From Desemzia incerta (GTDB lineage Bacteria; Bacillota; Bacilli; Lactobacillales; Carnobacteriaceae), in the NCBI RefSeq assembly GCF_900115825.1, contig NZ_FOXW01000004.1, forward strand, positions 1 to 64,000: DNA of 64,000 bases, written 5' to 3'. Positions 9,195 through 46,479 of this stretch are shown piece after piece; the first letter of the stretch is position 1, and every line of letters begins with the position of its first letter. Made by a program: the position numbers and the translations under genes. The notes under the pieces are model-generated. The model was not told the origin of the DNA, did not search any database, and saw only the letters and a program-made list of their open reading frames with translations.

Positions 9195-10336
9195 GTTTCA
9201 GCAGTTCTGCTTATTTTGATGACACTTGCTACATTAGCCGCTGTTGCTTTCAAGTTTTCATATCCTTTTTCGAGAACCTCATCAAGAGAACTCAATTCTG
9301 TCAGGATACTAAATACCGCATCGATTCCTTCGTCATGAACACTTTCATATCCTTTTGATAACGTCCCGGCTACAGCAATCACAGGAACGCCGTGTTTCTT
9401 AGCGATTCTTGAAACGGCAACCGGCGTTTTCCCGAAAATCGTCTGATGATTGATGCCGCCTTCTCCAGTAATCACCAAGTCAGCCTGCTTGATCTGCTCT
9501 TCCAATCCCAGCATCTCAACCAGCAAATCGCCGCCCCTTTTCAATTCAGCATCCAGAAAAGCCAACAGACCTGCACCTAAACCACCTGCTGCACCTGCTC
9601 CCGGGACTTGATCAATGTCTTTTCCAAGCGTCTTTTTGATCACTTGCGCATAATGAGCTAAATGACTGTCTAACAATTCAATTTGCTCTGATGTTCCACC
9701 TTTTTGCGGTCCATAAATATGAGAAGCGCCATTTTTCCCGGTCAGTGGATTGTCGACGTCGCAAGCCACTTTGATCACAACTTCTTTAAGGCGAGGATGC
9801 AATCTTGTGATATCGATGCTTTTCAATTTGCCAAGGCCCTGACCATCGGCTGAAATCGAGGCGCCAGTTTCGTCTAACAGCTTTCCGCCAAGACTCATCA
9901 CCATTCCGGCACCGCCGTCATTGGTCGCACTTCCTCCGATACCCAATAAAATTTCTTCCACGCCTTCTTCAAGCGCATCACAAATGAGTTCCCCAAAACC
10001 ATAGGTCGTTGTCACTAAAGGATTGCGTTTTTCCATAGGTACTTTATCTAAACCAGAAGCCGCAGCCATTTCAATCACCGCTATTTTTTTATCTCCCGAC
10101 AATCCGTAAAAAGCTTCCACCGGCTCGTACAATGGACCGGTTACCGTTACAGTTTTGATCGAACCGCCAGTCGCATCTACAATAGACTGGACAGTCCCTT
10201 CTCCTCCGTCTGCCATGGGAATTTTATAATAATTTTCATGTGGCAAGACCGAAGCAAAACCTTCTTCAATAGCTCTGGCCGCTTCCATTGCCGTTAAACT
10301 TTCTTTGAATGAATCTGGTGCAATCACAATGTACAT
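9176..10336 (-). CDS. glxK: Glycerate kinase (GlxK/GarK family)
   Basis: This enzyme phosphorylates D-glycerate with ATP, feeding it into lower glycolysis; family members give mostly the 2-phosphate. The 386-residue protein has the family landmarks: IAPDSFKESLTAMEAA at the N-terminus, PMADGGEGTV (about 41-50), LLGIGGSATNDGGAGM (about 125-140), GAAGGLGAGL and VITGEGGINHQT. It is the second gene of a leftward operon after a GntP-type permease, 29 bp downstream. A divergent CdaR-type regulator completes the usual glycerate/sugar-diacid arrangement. The start is the ATG at 10336 with GAGAGGG upstream. Confidence 0.93.
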   Translation of the reverse strand: MYIVIAPDSFKESLTAMEAARAIEEGFASVLPHENYYKIPMADGGEGTVQSIVDATGGSIKTVTVTGPLYEPVEAFYGLSGDKKIAVIEMAAASGLDKVPMEKRNPLVTTTYGFGELICDALEEGVEEILLGIGGSATNDGGAGMVMSLGGKLLDETGASISADGQGLGKLKSIDITRLHPRLKEVVIKVACDVDNPLTGKNGASHIYGPQKGGTSEQIELLDSHLAHYAQVIKKTLGKDIDQVPGAGAAGGLGAGLLAFLDAELKRGGDLLVEMLGLEEQIKQADLVITGEGGINHQTIFGKTPVAVSRIAKKHGVPVIAVAGTLSKGYESVHDEGIDAVFSILTELSSLDEVLEKGYENLKATAANVASVIKISRTAETTPREN

Positions 10337-10365
10337 CTTAAAGCCCTCTCTATCTATTATTTATT

Positions 10366-11637
10366 TTAAGCTATTTTCAGCAATCCAAACAAAATAACGG
10401 ATACTGCTGTAATGACTAGTCCAATCAATGATTCATAAGGAACCAATTTTAAGCGTTCTTTAAAACTCAACGATACGCTTCCGGCTGTCGCATGGAAGAA
10501 ACTTCCGTGCGGCAAATGATCTAAAACAGTTGCGCCGGCATGAATCATAGCCGCTCCACCTAGAGCACTGAAACCTGACTCAATCAACACTTTACTGAAT
10601 ACCGAGCTGGCAACAATCGAACCGGATGTTGTTGAAGCCGTTGCAGCTGACATCACGATTCCTGAAAGTGGTGCAAGTAAGTAAATCGGTAGTCCCAAGC
10701 TACTAATACTTTCAATTAGAATATCTCCTAAAGTCGAATTTGTGATGATTCCAGCAATGGTTCCCGTCCCAATCAACAAGACAGCTACAGATGACATTTT
10801 ACTCAAGCCAAAACTCATTTGATCAACAAGGCGGTTGGCTTGTCCCATAATAAGGGAACCGATAATACCACCTAGAGGTAAAGCCACCATTGGATCGATT
10901 ATGATTCCGGCTAATGGTCGAAGAGACAACAAGATAACGGCTGTAATAGGTCCTGCTATCGCTTTGATGAAGGGAGGAAGCTCTTTACTTGTATTAGCTG
11001 AATCATCTACTTCAACGGCTTCAACAAAAGACCCCTTTTTCGTCAGACGCTTAGCTAAAAAGTACGTCACAAATAAAGCCACAATACCTGGAATCACACC
11101 TGCTAGCATAACTGAAGTCAGCGAAGTCTGAAATGCTTCAGAAACCGCAATCGTGTTCGGATTGGGAGACATGATATTTCCTGCTTTTCCTCCACCAATC
11201 ATAGCCAATAGAATAGCTGATTTGCTGATCCCTGTATCTTTTGCAATCACCAATGCTATTGGAGCTACCGTAATAACTGCAATATCAATAAAAACGCCTA
11301 CTGTAGTGAGCAGCATGGTTGCTAGTGCCAGTGCAAATAAGGATTTCGTTTTCCCTATTTTATGTATGATCGTTTGAGCTATCGATTCTGCAGCTCCCGA
11401 TTCAATCAGCACCCCAGCTAAAACTCCAGCTGCTAATATTCTTAAAATAGCAGTCATCATACCTTGTGCTCCACTCACCATCAATTCTACTGTTTCGACT
11501 AGACTAGCTCCGCCTATAAGTCCTCCAGATAAAGCCCCAACTAATAAACTATAGATCGGTGGTACTTTGATAAAAATCAATCCAATCGAGATCACTAATC
11601 CAATAATTGCTCCAAGTGCGGTAATTTGTACTTCCAT
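10366..11637 (-). CDS. GntP-family permease, probable glycerate transporter
   Basis: This 423-residue protein has about 12 hydrophobic segments and the GntP-family sequence IGGGKAGNIMSPNPNTIAVSE with its conserved N and P residues. Family members are proton symporters for gluconate and related hydroxy-acids. The neighbouring glycerate kinase and CdaR regulator suggest glycerate as substrate. The chosen start is ATG at 11637, 8 nt after GGAGG; the TTG further upstream would place the start inside that site. A near-consensus cre box at 11697-11711 overlaps the likely -35 region, suggesting catabolite repression. Confidence 0.9.
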   Translation of the reverse strand: MEVQITALGAIIGLVISIGLIFIKVPPIYSLLVGALSGGLIGGASLVETVELMVSGAQGMMTAILRILAAGVLAGVLIESGAAESIAQTIIHKIGKTKSLFALALATMLLTTVGVFIDIAVITVAPIALVIAKDTGISKSAILLAMIGGGKAGNIMSPNPNTIAVSEAFQTSLTSVMLAGVIPGIVALFVTYFLAKRLTKKGSFVEAVEVDDSANTSKELPPFIKAIAGPITAVILLSLRPLAGIIIDPMVALPLGGIIGSLIMGQANRLVDQMSFGLSKMSSVAVLLIGTGTIAGIITNSTLGDILIESISSLGLPIYLLAPLSGIVMSAATASTTSGSIVASSVFSKVLIESGFSALGGAAMIHAGATVLDHLPHGSFFHATAGSVSLSFKERLKLVPYESLIGLVITAVSVILFGLLKIA

Positions 11638-11683
11638 TAACATTCCCTCCAAAAATAATGACGTTCATTTTCTACTTGAATAT

Positions 11684-11711
11684 AGTATAATACGTATTGA
11701 ATCCGCTTTCT
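11684..11711 (-). promoter_or_regulatory. Probable promoter and cre box of the gntP-glxK operon
   Basis: On the minus strand a TATACT -10 element lies at 11684-11689. At 11697-11711 is TTGAATCCGCTTTCT (plus strand), which matches the CcpA cre consensus WTGNAANCGNWWNCW at all but one fixed position. The cre would cover the -35 region. The divergent cdaR gene may share this control region. Confidence 0.55.
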
Positions 11712-11806
11712 ATGTAATGCAGAACCTATTAACTAGGGTTTAAGGCTGATTATTTGGTATACAGGACAATCAAGAAGTACTATTAAGTTGTTAAGAGGTG
11801 AATCAT

Positions 11807-12925
11807 ATGATGGAATTAGCTGCTCCATTGGCTCAAGAAATCGTTACGCAAATGAAAGAAATAATCCATCAAGAAATTAATTTCATGAATAAACAAGCCA
11901 TTATCATGGCTAGTACGGATCCTGATAGAATCGGAAAAATGCATGGCGGAGCTAAAGAAGTAATTAAAACGAAACGCCCACTCACTATTGCTACCGATTA
12001 CTCTTACCCAGGGAGTAAAAAAGGCATCAATATCCCTATTTACTTTGAACAGGAAATCATTGGCGTTATTGGGATCACGGGTGACAAAGAAAAAGTACAA
12101 CAACATGGTGAAATCATCAAAAAAATGACAGAGATCTTAATTAAAGAAGATTACTTAAAAGACATCCTCAGCAAACAAAGAGACCGTTCCAGACACATTA
12201 TCAGTGCACTTTTGCATCAGGAAATTTCTAATAAAGCTGCTGACACGCCTGATCCTTTTAGTTATGATTATTCGATTCCTCACGTAGCAGTGATCGGAAA
12301 ATGCACTTCAATTCCTTTAGGTTTAAGGAATGATCTTCACAAAATTATTGAACAATCTGCTATTTTGGATCATAAGCATATTTTCACGATTTTAAGCGAT
12401 CAACTGTACATCTTATTTAGAGAAGAGACTACTTCTAATGTCCAACACATCCTTCGCCAGTTAGTTGACGAAATTCACTCTAAAACAACATTACCATTTC
12501 GCTTTGGAATCGGATTACTTGCTGAATCTCAAAAAGAGGCAAGACAGTCTTTTATTCAAGCAGCTGACGCTTTGAAATGGACCATTCTTTCGAATCATAC
12601 ATTGGAACTGTATCAAGAAATGGATAATGGAATTTTATATGCGGGGTTGTCAGAAGAAAAAGCGACTCATTATTCTCATAAAATACTTTCTGGAATTCCT
12701 AGTGACGAAAAAGAAGAATTAAAGCTTCTCTTTTTCACTTATGGAGAAACAAATAAGAGCGTGGCAAAAAGTGCTGAAAAGTTGTTTTTGCACAAGAACA
12801 CCTTTCAGTACAAATTAAATAAAATCCAGCACTACACCGGTTATGACCCTAAAGTGGTTAACGATTATGTTGTTCTTTATTCCGCGTTTGTTTTAGAAAG
12901 TCTTTCTAGTTCAACAATTGTTTAA
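11807..12925 (+). CDS. cdaR: CdaR-family (sugar diacid) transcriptional regulator
   Basis: The 372-residue protein has an N-terminal diacid-recognition domain (about 1-130; LAAPLAQEIVTQM, then TIATDYSYPG and GVIGITGD). A C-terminal PucR-type HTH follows (about 315-365; TYGETNKSVAKSAEKLFLHK and NTFQYKLNKI). In E. coli CdaR activates glucarate/galactarate/glycerate genes; here it is divergent from a glycerate kinase and permease pair and is the likely activator. The ATG at 11807 has AAGAGGTG 6 nt upstream; an in-frame GTG at 11798 lies inside that site. Confidence 0.9.
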   Translation: MMELAAPLAQEIVTQMKEIIHQEINFMNKQAIIMASTDPDRIGKMHGGAKEVIKTKRPLTIATDYSYPGSKKGINIPIYFEQEIIGVIGITGDKEKVQQHGEIIKKMTEILIKEDYLKDILSKQRDRSRHIISALLHQEISNKAADTPDPFSYDYSIPHVAVIGKCTSIPLGLRNDLHKIIEQSAILDHKHIFTILSDQLYILFREETTSNVQHILRQLVDEIHSKTTLPFRFGIGLLAESQKEARQSFIQAADALKWTILSNHTLELYQEMDNGILYAGLSEEKATHYSHKILSGIPSDEKEELKLLFFTYGETNKSVAKSAEKLFLHKNTFQYKLNKIQHYTGYDPKVVNDYVVLYSAFVLESLSSSTIV

Positions 12926-39589: not shown

Positions 39590-39603
39590 TGAAAACGCTT
39601 TAT
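39590..39603. promoter_or_regulatory. cre (CcpA) site of the msm operon
   Basis: TGAAAACGCTTTAT, about 82 bp upstream of msmE, one mismatch to the cre consensus. The identical 14-mer occurs, inverted, at 44894-44907 before the GH4/EIICB operon. Confidence 0.72.
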
Positions 39604-41285: not shown

Positions 41286-42698
41286 TTAATTCCCGATCAA
41301 CTTATTAAACTCACTCATAACATTAGTCACTTCTGGACCGATGACGACTTGGTAATGAGTCGCAGAAGGTTTGATCAATCCGCTGATACCCGTTTGTTTA
41401 ATTCGATCTTCGTTAACTAGTTCTGGGTTTTGAACTGTAACGCGAAGACGAGTAACACAGTTATACGCATCTTCGATATTCGATTCTCCACCGAAAGATT
41501 GCAACAAGCTTTTCGCTAGATGAGCATAATTATTTGTAGCTAAGTTCAATTCTTTCTCTTCCTCTGAAACTTCTTCAGTAAAAGATTTTTCATCTTCTCG
41601 CCCTAACGTTTTCAGGCTCATTTTTTTGATGACAAAGTAGAATGTAAAGTAATAGAGTGCAAAGAATGCTGCTCCAACCGGTAAGATTAACAAAGGATTG
41701 GTAGCAATATTGAAACTGAGTACATAGTCAACCAGTGAAGCTCCAAATGAAAAGCCCATCCGGATATCTAATAAATAAGTTACGATACCCGCTAAGCCAG
41801 CATAAAACGAATGAATAACATACAATATAGGAGCGGTAAACATAAACGTAAATTCTACAGGCTCAGTGATGTTTGTAATAAATGAAGTCGCAGCTCCACT
41901 TCCCATAATTCCTTTGACCCGCGTTTTATTCTCTTTATACGCAGCATTATAAATGGCTAAACAGATACCAGGAACACCGAACATCATTATAACAAAGAAT
42001 CCTGCTAAGAACAGACCAGCGGTTGGATCGCCGTTTAAGAAACGAGGAATTTCTCCGGTTACCACTTCTCCTGCTGCATTAGTGAACTCTCCGAGATCAA
42101 AATAAATGTACGAGTTGATAACGTGATGCAACCCTAAAGGAATCAACAAACGATTCAAGAACATGAACAGTCCGACACCAAGTGCTCCCATTTCAACCCA
42201 ACTTTGAGCAAAAGTATCTAATGCCATCTGAATCGGCGGCCAAATGAAACCGAATACAAAAGCAGCCACTGTCATGAACACCATGATCATGGTTAAAGGG
42301 AATCGTTCTCCTGCAAAAAATGAAAAGATTTGCGGCAATCGCTGTTCTTTAAAGCGATTATAAGTCCAGCTTGCTATTAGTCCAGAGATAATCCCGCCAA
42401 ATATCCCCATACTGATTTCCGGATCCATCACTTCTAAACCAGTTCGTAATGTTAAAATAGCTAATACTGCCGTCAAAGCTGGCATACCTTTATCCTTTGC
42501 CTTGGCAAAACCGAATACGATACCAATAGCAAATAAAATATCTAAATTTCCAAACACAGCATTACCCGCTGCAGAAAGGATCGGTACATTCAACATGTCT
42601 TCTGCTGAGAAACGCAATAAGATCCCAGCAAGCGGCATAGCCGACACAGGTACAAGCATCGACCTTCCCATTTTTTGTATATTCCCTTTTACATCCAT
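41286..42698 (-). CDS. PTS EIICB transporter of the glucose/glucosamine/alpha-glucoside family
   Basis: This 470-residue protein has an EIIC domain (about 1-365; MLVPVSAMPLAGILLRF, LGLHHVINSYIYFD, SFITNITEPVEFTFMF with the sugar-binding glutamate). A C-terminal EIIB domain follows (about 395-470) with the phospho-cysteine in EDAYNCVTRLRVTV. There is no fused EIIA; a partner such as a free or fused EIIA-Glc must act in trans. The subfamily includes NagE, MalX and AglA-type transporters. It is last of a leftward operon after GH4 and ChbG genes, which suggests an N-acetylated or alpha-linked disaccharide. ATG 42698 follows AAGGAGG. Confidence 0.9.
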   Translation of the reverse strand: MDVKGNIQKMGRSMLVPVSAMPLAGILLRFSAEDMLNVPILSAAGNAVFGNLDILFAIGIVFGFAKAKDKGMPALTAVLAILTLRTGLEVMDPEISMGIFGGIISGLIASWTYNRFKEQRLPQIFSFFAGERFPLTMIMVFMTVAAFVFGFIWPPIQMALDTFAQSWVEMGALGVGLFMFLNRLLIPLGLHHVINSYIYFDLGEFTNAAGEVVTGEIPRFLNGDPTAGLFLAGFFVIMMFGVPGICLAIYNAAYKENKTRVKGIMGSGAATSFITNITEPVEFTFMFTAPILYVIHSFYAGLAGIVTYLLDIRMGFSFGASLVDYVLSFNIATNPLLILPVGAAFFALYYFTFYFVIKKMSLKTLGREDEKSFTEEVSEEEKELNLATNNYAHLAKSLLQSFGGESNIEDAYNCVTRLRVTVQNPELVNEDRIKQTGISGLIKPSATHYQVVIGPEVTNVMSEFNKLIGN

Positions 42699-42731
42699 TA
42701 CTACTCCTCCTTTAAGTTCATTAGTTTAATC

Positions 42732-43475
42732 TCAAATATCTCGATAAGTTCCAAATTGAATCTGATTCTTTTCCAATACTTCTTTGTAACTAGTATTCTG
42801 TAACTCTTTTACCGTAAATACCCTGCTATCCAATAAGCTTGAGTTTGCCATTACCACATCATCCAAGTAACCAGGATGACACATCACTTCTACAGTACCA
42901 TATACCTGACAATCCTGAACCAAGTTTTGGATTGTCATTTCCTTCCATATTTCTTTGTTTTGGCTAAGACCATCAAATTCTGTAAAAAAGCGATTCACAG
43001 TTCTAAGTGTTTCTGGAACGTCAAAATTATTGCGTACAGGCAGTTGGTATTTTTGTGCCAGTTCTATAAATACTTCTTTCATTGGCGAAATCCGATTTAC
43101 ATGATGGTGACTATCTAAATGAGTCGGTTGAATCCCTGCAGCAATGATTTTCTTGATTTGTGCTTCCCATTCTCTATAAAGCTCTTCTGGATTAATCGAA
43201 AACTCTTTTTCATAAAATGAAATTTTCCGAAACTTATTGCCTTCCATCAAACTCGTTCCATCACTCAATAGTGGTTCTCCACACGTTAAGGTTAAATGCA
43301 CTCCTATACCCAAGTCTGGGTTTTGTCTTGCCAATTCTACTCCATGATCGAAACCAGGCATGTTAGCCATCATAGTAGTAGATGTCAGTATCCCGTTTTG
43401 ATGAGCTGCCACGATACCTAAATTGATTCCTGGACTATAGCCAAAATCATCTGCATTAACAATGAGTAATCTCAT
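42732..43475 (-). CDS. chbG: ChbG/YdjC-family carbohydrate deacetylase, copy 1
   Basis: ChbG in E. coli removes one N-acetyl group from chitooligosaccharides (chitobiose and its 6-phosphate) so that the GH4 enzyme ChbF can act. This 247-residue protein has the YdjC metal site: D-D in IVNADDFGY (residues about 8-9), histidine in GIGVHLTLTCGEP, and HLDSHHHVN. The nearby catalytic region VMCHPGYLD is also present. It is translated from ATG 43475, after GAGGAG, between the GH4 gene and the EIICB gene. A second copy lies at 45751-46479. Confidence 0.9.
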   Translation of the reverse strand: MRLLIVNADDFGYSPGINLGIVAAHQNGILTSTTMMANMPGFDHGVELARQNPDLGIGVHLTLTCGEPLLSDGTSLMEGNKFRKISFYEKEFSINPEELYREWEAQIKKIIAAGIQPTHLDSHHHVNRISPMKEVFIELAQKYQLPVRNNFDVPETLRTVNRFFTEFDGLSQNKEIWKEMTIQNLVQDCQVYGTVEVMCHPGYLDDVVMANSSLLDSRVFTVKELQNTSYKEVLEKNQIQFGTYRDI

Positions 43476-43496
43476 AACATTCTCCTCACATTTCAT

Positions 43497-44807
43497 TTAA
43501 CTTAATTCCACCCAATACTCTCCATTTGCTTCAATCAATTCGTCTAAAACTTTTTTCGCTACATCTGCATTCGGAACAGATTGATTTAGAGTGAATGCTT
43601 GCAATGCCTTTTGGTATGAACCTTCAAAGAAAGCATCTACTAATAACTTCTCAGAAGCTACTTGTGCTTCCATCAATCCTTTATGAAAATCCGGGATATC
43701 CTGTCTCAATGAGATGGGTTCTACTCCATGTGCATTGACATAACAAGGCACTTCCACTACAGCATCTTGACGCAAATTGGGAATCGCACCTTTGTTCGGC
43801 ATAATCAACATAAATCGTTGATTTTGGTCATTTAATATAGACACCGCGATATCTACAATGTATTGTCCGTGAGAATCACTAGAGTAATCAATGTCCTCTA
43901 TAGAAGAAGCTGAGCGGATTTTTTCAGCCGTCTCTTTAATTTTTTTCAATCTTCCATCCATGATTTCATTTGCTCGAGTGTATGTTGGATTAGAGCTTTC
44001 AACGATACGATTTGGATACAAGTAGTATTCCAAATAATTGTTCGGCAAATGTTCTGGGAAGGTATCTACCATGTGCTCCATCAATTTGAAAGCCTTAGCC
44101 CAGCTTGGATCTAAACCTTCTGTATTGAACCCTTGAGTACGTATCTTTTCAATAATTTCTGGCATAATATCTCTTTTTTCTGCGGTATCATAAATACTTT
44201 GATACCATCCAAAATGGTTCAATCCATAATAGTAACTGATCCAGTTCGTTCGGTCATACCCAAATGAATCAGCAATCAACTCTTCGACCGATATCGTCAT
44301 GTCACATGCATTGATGATTTTAGCTTCCGGGAATTTTCTTCTTACCGCTTCAGAGATGATTGTTTCCGGATTAGTATAGTTCAAGATCCATGCATCTGGT
44401 GCATACTCTTGAATGTGCTGCACCATCTCCAGAAAACCTTTCATGGAGCGCATCCCATAAGAAAAACCTCCTAATCCGCAAGTTTCTTGTCCAACGATTC
44501 CATACTTCAACGGAATCTTTTCATCAATTTCACGCATTTGGATACCGCCAACACGTATTTGAGAGAAAATAAAATTCACTCCTGTGAAGGCTGTTTTTGG
44601 GTCATGAGTAACTGTCAATGTAATGTCAGACTGATTCTTTTTAATCAAATAATCAACAATAACTTCCATGTCTGAATTTCTTTCTCTGTCGGTGTCGTAT
44701 AGACGAATCTCCTTGATTGGAAAGTTTGCTTGGTTCTTTAAAAGAGTCAATACGATTCCGGGAGTATATCCGCTTCCGCCTCCAGCTATAGTAACAATAT
44801 TTTTCAT
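43497..44807 (-). CDS. GH4 NAD-dependent 6-phospho-glycosidase
   Basis: This 436-residue enzyme has the GH4 features: NAD-binding GGGSGYTPG (about 9-17), YTNPE (144-148), metal-binding cysteine C168 in NACDMT and histidine H198 in YYGLNHFGW. GH4 uses NAD and Mn2+ for a redox-elimination mechanism. In the known subgroups CDMP goes with 6-phospho-alpha-glucosidases and CNVP with 6-phospho-beta-glucosidases such as ChbF/CelF; here it is CDMT, closer to the alpha group. The substrate is therefore open. It is the first gene of the operon; a cre box lies about 90 bp upstream. Confidence 0.92.
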   Translation of the reverse strand: MKNIVTIAGGGSGYTPGIVLTLLKNQANFPIKEIRLYDTDRERNSDMEVIVDYLIKKNQSDITLTVTHDPKTAFTGVNFIFSQIRVGGIQMREIDEKIPLKYGIVGQETCGLGGFSYGMRSMKGFLEMVQHIQEYAPDAWILNYTNPETIISEAVRRKFPEAKIINACDMTISVEELIADSFGYDRTNWISYYYGLNHFGWYQSIYDTAEKRDIMPEIIEKIRTQGFNTEGLDPSWAKAFKLMEHMVDTFPEHLPNNYLEYYLYPNRIVESSNPTYTRANEIMDGRLKKIKETAEKIRSASSIEDIDYSSDSHGQYIVDIAVSILNDQNQRFMLIMPNKGAIPNLRQDAVVEVPCYVNAHGVEPISLRQDIPDFHKGLMEAQVASEKLLVDAFFEGSYQKALQAFTLNQSVPNADVAKKVLDELIEANGEYWVELS

Positions 44808-44893
44808 TTGCTCATCCTCTTCCTTTCATTTACTTATTCACTACCTTATTTTTATCACTTCTTTGTGCTATAATAAATATCAATCGCGGATAT

Positions 44894-44907
44894 ATAAAGC
44901 GTTTTCA
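44894..44907. promoter_or_regulatory. cre (CcpA) site between the GH4 and rpiR genes
   Basis: ATAAAGCGTTTTCA, the exact inverse of the cre at 39590-39603. It is in the 156-bp divergent region and could repress both directions. Confidence 0.72.
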
Positions 44908-44963
44908 TAAGTCGTAATTTTTTCCATTTCATGAAATTTTTTCCACCTCTGGAGGGTATGCAT

Positions 44964-45731
44964 ATGAATCTCATCGAAAAACACCTAAGTCATTTCTCAC
45001 ATGAATTGTCAAAAAACGATATTGAAGTAGTGAAGTGTATCAATACACACTATGCAGATATTCCAAAAATGAAAATTAAAGACCTTGCAGCCGTTTGTTA
45101 TACTTCTGTTTCAACACTACATAGAGTGATTAAAAAATTGGGCTTCGAGGGTTTTAGTGACTTTAAATATCGATTAAAAGATGATAAAGAAGAAGCTATT
45201 CCAAAAGAAATGAACGATGAAGAATATATTCAAAAAGTAATGTCCAATTTAAAACTGACAAAGCGATTAAACGAAAAAGAAATCAGTCATGTCGCTCAAG
45301 TCATATTAGAGAAACAAAAACGATATTGTTTTGGAACTGGCTGGAAACAGCAGCAAAGTGTTGACAATTTTTCTACAGATCTTCTCTATTACGGAGAGAG
45401 TTTCACTTTCTTAAGGACAATCGATGATCTTCGTAGTGTGTCAAGCAGTATGGATAAGGATACGCTGCTGTTAGTCGTTTCTCTCAGTGGCAACGCTCAA
45501 GACTATTTAACAGAAATTGAACGCTGCACTTTAAAAAACTGCACCATCATCAGTGTGACCATCGATTCCAACAACACACTCAGCTCATTAGCCGACTATT
45601 CTATTTACTACAGAAACGATACATTAGACAACACAAAAAAACATTGGAACAGCCTGACTTTAAACTTTTTGCTGGATTACTTATTGGAAAATATTGTGAG
45701 TCAGAAGGCTCTTCTGGAAAACTCAAGATAA
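44964..45731 (+). CDS. RpiR-family transcriptional regulator
   Basis: This 255-residue protein has an N-terminal HTH_6 domain (about 10-75; KIKDLAAVCYTSVSTLHRVI, KKLGFEGFSDFKYRL) and a SIS phosphosugar-binding domain (about 105-235; FGTGWKQQQSVDNF, LLVVSLSGNAQDYLTEIERC). It likely senses a phosphosugar made by the GH4 or PTS route and controls the divergent operon and the following chbG copy. The start is ATG 44964, 7 nt after GGAGGG; upstream in-frame ATGs lie too close to or before that site. Confidence 0.9.
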   Translation: MNLIEKHLSHFSHELSKNDIEVVKCINTHYADIPKMKIKDLAAVCYTSVSTLHRVIKKLGFEGFSDFKYRLKDDKEEAIPKEMNDEEYIQKVMSNLKLTKRLNEKEISHVAQVILEKQKRYCFGTGWKQQQSVDNFSTDLLYYGESFTFLRTIDDLRSVSSSMDKDTLLLVVSLSGNAQDYLTEIERCTLKNCTIISVTIDSNNTLSSLADYSIYYRNDTLDNTKKHWNSLTLNFLLDYLLENIVSQKALLENSR

Positions 45732-45750
45732 AAGGAGCAGTAACTTAGTT

Positions 45751-46479
45751 ATGAAAAAACTAATCATCAACGCGGACGACTTCGGATATTGTAAAGGCGT
45801 AAATTACGGGATTATCGAGGCTCATATAGATGGTGTACTGACTTCTACGACCATGATGGCTAATATGCCCGGCTTCGATCACGCAGTAGAGTTGCATCAT
45901 CAGTACCCTAACCTTGGTATCGGCGTTCACTTAAACCTAACTACAGGCTCTCCAGTTTTGAACCACTTGAAAACTATCGTAGATACTGAAGGAAACTTCC
46001 GCAACCAAGCGTATTACAAAGGTTCTTTCATCATTAATCAGAAAGAAATTTATGACGAATGGAAAGCGCAAATTGAAAAAATCTTAGCTGCTGGCATCCA
46101 ACCTACTCATCTCGATGCGCATCATCATGCGAATCTTTTTGGCGACTTCAACAGAATCTATCTAAGACTGGCTGATGAATACAACTTGCCGGTCAGAAAC
46201 AACTTCAAAAACCAAGATCCAACACGGAAAACTACCGAGGGATTCGTGTATACAATGGAAACTGCTCTTCAATCAGAAGATACTTTAAACGAGTTATTTG
46301 AAATGCACGATTCGGTCGAGATCATGTGCCATCCTGCTTTTTTAGATAAGTTTTTATTGGCCAGTTCATCTTATACTTACCCTAGAACAGAAGAACTGGA
46401 TTTGCTGACTCATCCAACTACTAAAGAGCTGTTCCGCAGCCAAAGTCTCTTCGAACTGGCTACCTTTAAGCAGCTATAA
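45751..46479 (+). CDS. chbG: ChbG/YdjC-family carbohydrate deacetylase, copy 2
   Basis: This 242-residue paralogue of the gene at 42732-43475 shares long identical blocks (LTSTTMMANMPGFDHAVEL, AAGIQPTHLD, LPVRNNF, VEIMCHP). It keeps the metal ligands (IINADDFGY, GIGVHLNLT, HLDAHHHAN). It lies 19 bp after rpiR in the same direction, so regulator and second deacetylase form a two-gene unit opposite the GH4-chbG-EIICB operon. ATG 45751 follows AAGGAG. A weak TATCC / GGATA hairpin with a T-run follows (about 46484-46520). Confidence 0.9.
   Translation: MKKLIINADDFGYCKGVNYGIIEAHIDGVLTSTTMMANMPGFDHAVELHHQYPNLGIGVHLNLTTGSPVLNHLKTIVDTEGNFRNQAYYKGSFIINQKEIYDEWKAQIEKILAAGIQPTHLDAHHHANLFGDFNRIYLRLADEYNLPVRNNFKNQDPTRKTTEGFVYTMETALQSEDTLNELFEMHDSVEIMCHPAFLDKFLLASSSYTYPRTEELDLLTHPTTKELFRSQSLFELATFKQL

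Follow-up and report, generated by a model that had tools for sequence, protein, structure and literature searches.

The hydrolase ChbF of Escherichia coli is inactive on the phosphorylated disaccharide GlcNAc6P-GlcNAc (GlcNAc, N-acetylglucosamine) until ChbG deacetylates its non-reducing, phosphorylated sugar, as stated in two papers that both cite Walter et al. 2021 (PMC13197890; PMC12791066). In Lacticaseibacillus paracasei, the still acetylated phosphodisaccharide is the substrate of a GH170 enzyme, after which NagA acts, with neither an enzyme of glycoside hydrolase family 4 (GH4) nor ChbG involved (PMC12791066). Here we describe a five-gene locus of Desemzia incerta, at positions 41286–46479 of the 64,000-nucleotide stretch of DNA analysed (contig NZ_FOXW01000004.1; the window), which encodes a GH4 glycosidase, an EIICB permease of the phosphotransferase system (PTS), an RpiR-family regulator and two YdjC deacetylases, ChbG1 and ChbG2. 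A literature search found no paper combining YdjC with GH4 and none describing this cassette.

The locus probably serves PTS-dependent catabolism of an alpha-linked disaccharide (or glycoside) with an N-acetylated non-reducing sugar, in the simplest case GlcNAc-alpha-X. In the proposed pathway, the NagE-like EIICB would import GlcNAc-alpha-X and phosphorylate O6 of GlcNAc, giving GlcNAc6P-alpha-X; ChbG1, ChbG2 or both would take off the N-acetyl group; and the NAD- and Mn-dependent, alpha-class GH4 would split the resulting GlcN6P-alpha-X into glucosamine 6-phosphate (GlcN6P) and X, GlcN6P then entering glycolysis via NagB. RpiR would control the divergent promoters, and ChbG2, now in the rpiR transcript, would serve as a second, probably overlapping, deacetylase. 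GH4 enzymes oxidize C3 and deprotonate C2 of their substrates, so that the substituent at C2 would matter. The observations are of gene content, protein families, phylogeny and co-occurrence; from these we predict the regulation, the alpha linkage, the identity of the acetylated sugar as GlcNAc and each of the biochemical steps. The class and clade of GH4 suggest the alpha linkage; ChbG, the NagE-like permease and neighbouring genes suggest the amino sugar, which could be N-acetylgalactosamine instead of GlcNAc. The strongest single argument is that hydrolases of one and the same GH4 clade are found both with an alpha-glucoside permease, and then lacking ChbG, and with a NagE-like permease accompanied by ChbG. 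An earlier note on this DNA had proposed uptake of an N-acetylated or otherwise acylated disaccharide of a new kind; comparative evidence favours a substrate that is N-acetylated, probably alpha-linked and not chitobiose, and that interpretation as a whole is borne out in part.

Organization of the locus

The minus-strand operon GH4 > chbG1 > EIICB, with short intergenic gaps, faces a plus-strand rpiR-chbG2 pair. The earlier note had described these five genes around one divergent control region, and all five were recovered in position and passed their family tests.

43497..44807, minus strand: alpha-class GH4 glycosidase of the type A clade, opening the operon; PF02056 and PF11975
42732..43475, minus strand: chbG1, YdjC deacetylase; NF002559 229 bits; native copy of the operon
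41286..42698, minus strand: NagE-like PTS EIICB lacking an EIIA domain, at the end of the operon; PF02378 and PF00367
41211..41252, minus strand: terminator-like hairpin of 19 pairs followed by a T run, 3' of EIICB; from a consensus scan
44808..44963, no strand: divergent control region between GH4 and rpiR
44964..45731, plus strand: RpiR-family regulator; HTH_6 and SIS domains; longest open reading frame from 44931
45751..46479, plus strand: chbG2, YdjC deacetylase; NF002559 240 bits; orthologue of the type B deacetylase (see below)

Two of these starts are revised because ribosome-binding sites precede them. The more likely start of chbG1 is the second ATG, at 43475, which follows GAGGAG and gives a protein of 247 residues (longest open reading frame from 43496), and that of rpiR is more likely 44964, preceded by GGAGGG, than 44931. 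Transcription of the operon would run from GH4 through chbG1 to EIICB and stop at the hairpin (41252–41211). The regulator belongs to the RpiR/MurR family by its HTH_6 (PF01418, 49.6 bits) and SIS (PF01380, 33.1 bits) domains.

A distinct clade of alpha-class GH4 enzymes

The solved structures nearest to the GH4 protein are 6-phospho-alpha-glucosidases (PDB entries 1u8x, 431 bits, and 6dux, 427 bits), whereas 6-phospho-beta-glucosidases score 198 bits or less. Its fold, Cys and His metal ligands and alpha-class acid Asp place it with the 6-phospho-alpha-glucosidases. The CDMT motif noted earlier as closer to these enzymes than to ChbF is present as C168-D169-M170-T171, alongside a second motif, NYTNPE; C168-D169 and H198 are invariant across what we term the type A clade, and the protein aligns to 1u8x. 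A tree of 49 GH4 proteins recovers this clade with support of 100/100, separate from the canonical clade with NPA and CDMP motifs and far from the ChbF-like enzymes, with which the protein neither groups nor shares the CNxP motif. The canonical CDMP enzymes form the sister group of type A, at a junction with support of just 88/72. Searches of relatives and of species genomes found type A homologues in at least ten genera, which among the matches listed, at 57–77% identity, include Helcococcus, Anaerococcus, Enterococcus, Tissierella, Vagococcus, Tetragenococcus, Bacillus, Listeria, Companilactobacillus and Erysipelothrix.

Two residues in the NP and CDM active-site motifs distinguish the clade: E148 (in NYTNPE) is present in 33 of 33 type A rows and T171 (in CDMT) in 31 of 33, the remaining rows having A, whereas all 59 canonical 6-phospho-alpha-glucosidase rows have A and P at these positions. 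The pair was considered as a signature of deacetylation dependence and rejected, being found in type A members without YdjC and absent from type B enzymes; E148 and T171 thus mark the clade and are no proof of a new substrate. An AlphaFold model of the protein was left out of the arguments because its mean pLDDT (a per-residue confidence score) is 72.9 and its active-site loops are weak. Contig C21 of G001, a congeneric genome, carries five GH4 genes of the 6-phospho-alpha-glucosidase type within approximately 80 kb (about 88–167 kb).

These assignments bear on whether the locus serves ordinary diacetylchitobiose catabolism, with this GH4 replacing ChbF in cleaving beta-linked GlcN6P-GlcNAc after deacetylation. 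Both deacetylases do pass the chitin disaccharide deacetylase model, and GH4 relatives in Listeria and Erysipelothrix adjoin cellobiose-type PTS genes. However, the CDM motif is that of the alpha-class 6-phospho-alpha-glucosidases, with CNI in its place in ChbF; alpha-glucoside permeases partner the same GH4 clade; and the genome has a separate, ChbF-like GH4 adjoining a ChbC-like permease (C6:171996). We regard the chitobiose route as quite unlikely.

The permease and its co-occurrence with ChbG

The EIICB consists of PTS_EIIC and PTS_EIIB domains and is, as previously noted, of the Glc family rather than the ChbBCA type; more precisely, it is NagE-like. Its best NCBIfam model is TIGR01998 (GlcNAc EIIBC) at 458 bits, under the cut-off of 553, so that it is not formally a NagE. 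The true NagE of this genome, encoded elsewhere, scores 662 bits, and a nagA-nagB pair is also present; the products of the pathway would therefore be usable, and the operon's EIICB would be free for another substrate.

ChbG and a NagE-like EIICB (58–70% identity to that of the window) stand beside a type A GH4 in the window, in L159 (which belongs to a different family within the order), in Enterococcus, Vagococcus and Bacillus chungangensis, in Listeria-family genomes (L028 and L152) and, as a broken copy, in Anaerococcus (L030:6589-9311, where GH4 and EIICB are each split in two frames). In Helcococcus and Tissierella the ChbG and type A GH4 accompany a MalX-like PTS, and in Listeria cossartiae, Listeria marthii and Erysipelothrix a cellobiose-type PTS. 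Tetragenococcus, Companilactobacillus and several relatives combine a type A GH4 with an alpha-glucoside EIICB and no ChbG, and YdjC is absent from the whole of three genomes with this arrangement (G005, G016 and G026). Two of the alpha-glucoside EIICBs were tested with TIGR02005 and score 760–788 bits (cut-off 607); the others were assigned through BLAST identity, those of L046 and L053 weakly (31–33%).

ChbG lies within 4 kb of GH4 in 20 of 33 type A rows and 0 of 59 canonical rows (Fisher p 7e-12, for rows that are related and include a few duplicates). By transporter, counted across type A and the types B and C described below, ChbG accompanies NagE-like permeases in 16/17 cases, MalX-like in 3/3, cellobiose-type in 5/5 and alpha-glucoside-type in 0/12. 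If the proposed pathway holds, a simple rule would follow: YdjC is present when the permease is NagE-like and not of the alpha-glucoside type.

This pattern also bears on the possibility that the acetylated sugar is the aglycone, as in a substrate of the Glc-alpha-GlcNAc type; ChbG would then work at the reducing end, and GH4 would be an ordinary 6-phospho-alpha-glucosidase. Such a substrate would suit both the closeness of GH4 to 6-phospho-alpha-glucosidases and the clade members that pair with alpha-glucoside permeases without ChbG. It would not suit the co-occurrence of ChbG with a NagE-like permease, which suggests GlcNAc at the phosphorylated end, nor the non-reducing end as the site of E. 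coli ChbG action (PMC13197890), and it appears improbable.

Several observations weigh against a GlcNAc-alpha-X pathway. Few independent evolutionary changes lie behind the co-occurrence counts: tree correction leaves 2–3 contrasts in all, of which 1–2 are in favour and 0 opposed, too few to be significant. L048 has a NagE-like permease without ChbG, the Listeria and Erysipelothrix relatives use cellobiose-type permeases, the usual carriers of beta-glycosides, and the clade residues E148 and T171 extend to members without YdjC.

Other amino-sugar genes lie near relatives of the GH4. A NagB-like deaminase gene is present in the Listeria clusters. In L048, a gene for the deacetylase NagA directly follows GH4 and the NagE-like EIICB (10787-11971, plus strand), possibly an alternative handling of the acetyl group. 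In Tetragenococcus, where a type A GH4 pairs with an alpha-glucoside EIICB, a nearby gene for a NanE-type ManNAc-6-phosphate epimerase (ManNAc, N-acetylmannosamine; L039:12212-12967, plus strand) may be another amino-sugar link.

Two deacetylases and their origins

ChbG1 and ChbG2 score 198 and 210 bits with PF04794 (cut-off 29.7) and 229 and 240 bits with NF002559, the chitin disaccharide deacetylase model (cut-off 227). In an alignment with E. coli ChbG, both keep the conserved metal-site residues, comprising the Asp of NADDFG, the His of GxH and the HHH motif. The two DEACETYLASES, ChbG1 and ChbG2, are 45% identical, and theirs are the only YdjC genes in the 2.33-Mb assembly. The earlier note's remark that one ChbG normally suffices is weak at the level of the genome: YdjC is frequent in this order (one or more genes in 100 of 295 genomes, with 2–5 in many of those 100), so that two copies per genome are ordinary. 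The unusual part is their presence at one locus, seen here only among the neighbourhoods compared; the combination of families recurs beyond this genome.

The copies have separate relatives. L159 has the same operon with one ChbG (66% identity to ChbG1), a GH4 of 77%, an EIICB of 70% and a divergent RpiR of 54% identity to their window counterparts. The type B cassette, found in L141 (same genus) and L142 (same family), has a GntR/UTRA regulator facing GH4' > ChbG > EIICB'; its GH4' carries a CDMP motif and is 46–47% identical to the window GH4, its ChbG is 80% (L141) and 74% (L142) identical to ChbG2, and its NagE-like EIICB' is 53% (L141) and 52% (L142) identical to the window EIICB. The type C cassette (L143–L145) comprises ChbG, EIICB, an alpha-class GH4 and an RpiR-type regulator; in L145 the GH4 gene (10229-11554) is broken by a TAG stop.

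In the ChbG tree, ChbG1 groups with L159 (100/99) and ChbG2 with L141 and L142 (100/100). ChbG1 is the operon's native deacetylase and, by this grouping, ChbG2 descends from the deacetylase of a type B cassette. Local tandem duplication was rejected, given the identity of 45% between the copies and their placement in separate, supported groups of the tree.

It was earlier suggested that the two enzymes act on different acetyl positions or linkages, and specialization of this kind for one substrate would fit their divergence, the conserved residues kept in both and their placement in two transcription units. The tree speaks for another history: the orthologue of each is the sole ChbG of a complete cassette (L159; L141 and L142), so that each would by descent serve one-step deacetylation in its own pathway. 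We consider such specialization highly unlikely; it is possible that ChbG1 and ChbG2 act on different aglycones. ChbG2 might instead be a relic or passenger with no distinct role, ChbG1 alone being important. The partners of the type B cassette are not in this genome, where a search with a type B GH4 query recovered just the five known GH4 genes, at 30–47% identity, and no type B remnant; moreover, the G+C content at third codon positions is 0.43 in chbG2 and 0.31–0.36 in adjoining genes. Against this stand the intact frame, the conserved residues and a spacing of 19 bp after rpiR with a ribosome-binding site in between, and a relic remains the doubtful alternative to ChbG2 as a second, overlapping deacetylase.

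Signals in the control region

A promoter-like site lies between GH4 and rpiR (minus strand, 44898–44870), at a score not above chance. The cre-like 14-mer ATAAAGCGTTTTCA occurs in the same region at 44894–44907 and, on the opposite strand, at 39590–39603, the latter copy being upstream of an ABC-transporter operon; it was rejected as a cre site, having two mismatches, and such matches in the window are not above chance. A search for operator palindromes gave short repeats only.

Candidate glycans and implications

On balance we lean slightly towards a broader proposal: a widespread Gram-positive pathway for alpha-linked N-acetylhexosaminyl disaccharides, in which GH4 would have a new specificity, that of a ChbG-dependent 6-phospho-alpha-glucosaminidase, in at least three lineages (A, B and C), the deacetylases of two of them being present here. 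Such GH4 proteins are listed in public records as maltose-6'-phosphate glucosidases, and the YdjC genes are chitin disaccharide deacetylases by their NCBIfam model; if the proposal is true, both annotations mislead for the cassette in Enterococcus, Listeria, Vagococcus, Anaerococcus and Bacillus, and a route to alpha-linked amino-sugar glycans would be open to its carriers. Candidates, by inference only, are host mucin-type or bacterial wall glycans.

In two Listeria-family genomes, a gene for a GH95-like protein is directly downstream of the ChbG-EIICB-GH4 cassette (L028:9897-14672 and L152:11190 onward, both plus strand). The L028 protein comprises 1591 residues, with F5/8C domains and an LPXTG-type C terminus, and such a surface protein may release the natural substrate. 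A search of the D. incerta genome for the Listeria protein, run without a positive control, gave no match, and a search for GH89, also made for secreted enzymes that might point to the substrate, found none in this genome.

Comparison with known systems

The window locus resembles the chbBCARFG operon of E. coli (diacetylchitobiose) in that a single operon encodes a PTS permease together with a ChbG/YdjC deacetylase and a GH4 hydrolase, with the same proposed logic of deacetylation before cleavage. It is not an E. coli-type chb operon, since permease, GH4 class and regulator all differ: a NagE-like EIICB stands in place of ChbBCA, an alpha-class GH4 with CDMT in place of ChbF with CNIP, and RpiR in place of ChbR, and there are two deacetylases. 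An alpha-class GH4 beside a Glc-family EIICB and an RpiR regulator is shared with the 6-phospho-alpha-glucosidase operons of the GlvA/AglB type, whose canonical enzymes, unlike that of the window, carry NPA and CDMP motifs and have no YdjC nearby (0/59). The chb genes of L. paracasei are comparable in giving a Gram-positive bacterium PTS-based access to an N-acetylated disaccharide (PMC12791066). A megaplasmid cluster of Enterococcus raffinosus (K5P74_RS15055-RS15030) likewise has adjacent genes for a carbohydrate deacetylase, an EIIC and a GH4 that bears the annotation maltose-6'-phosphate glucosidase, but has a PRD-domain regulator rather than RpiR, its own EIIA, a GRP transporter and a single deacetylase.

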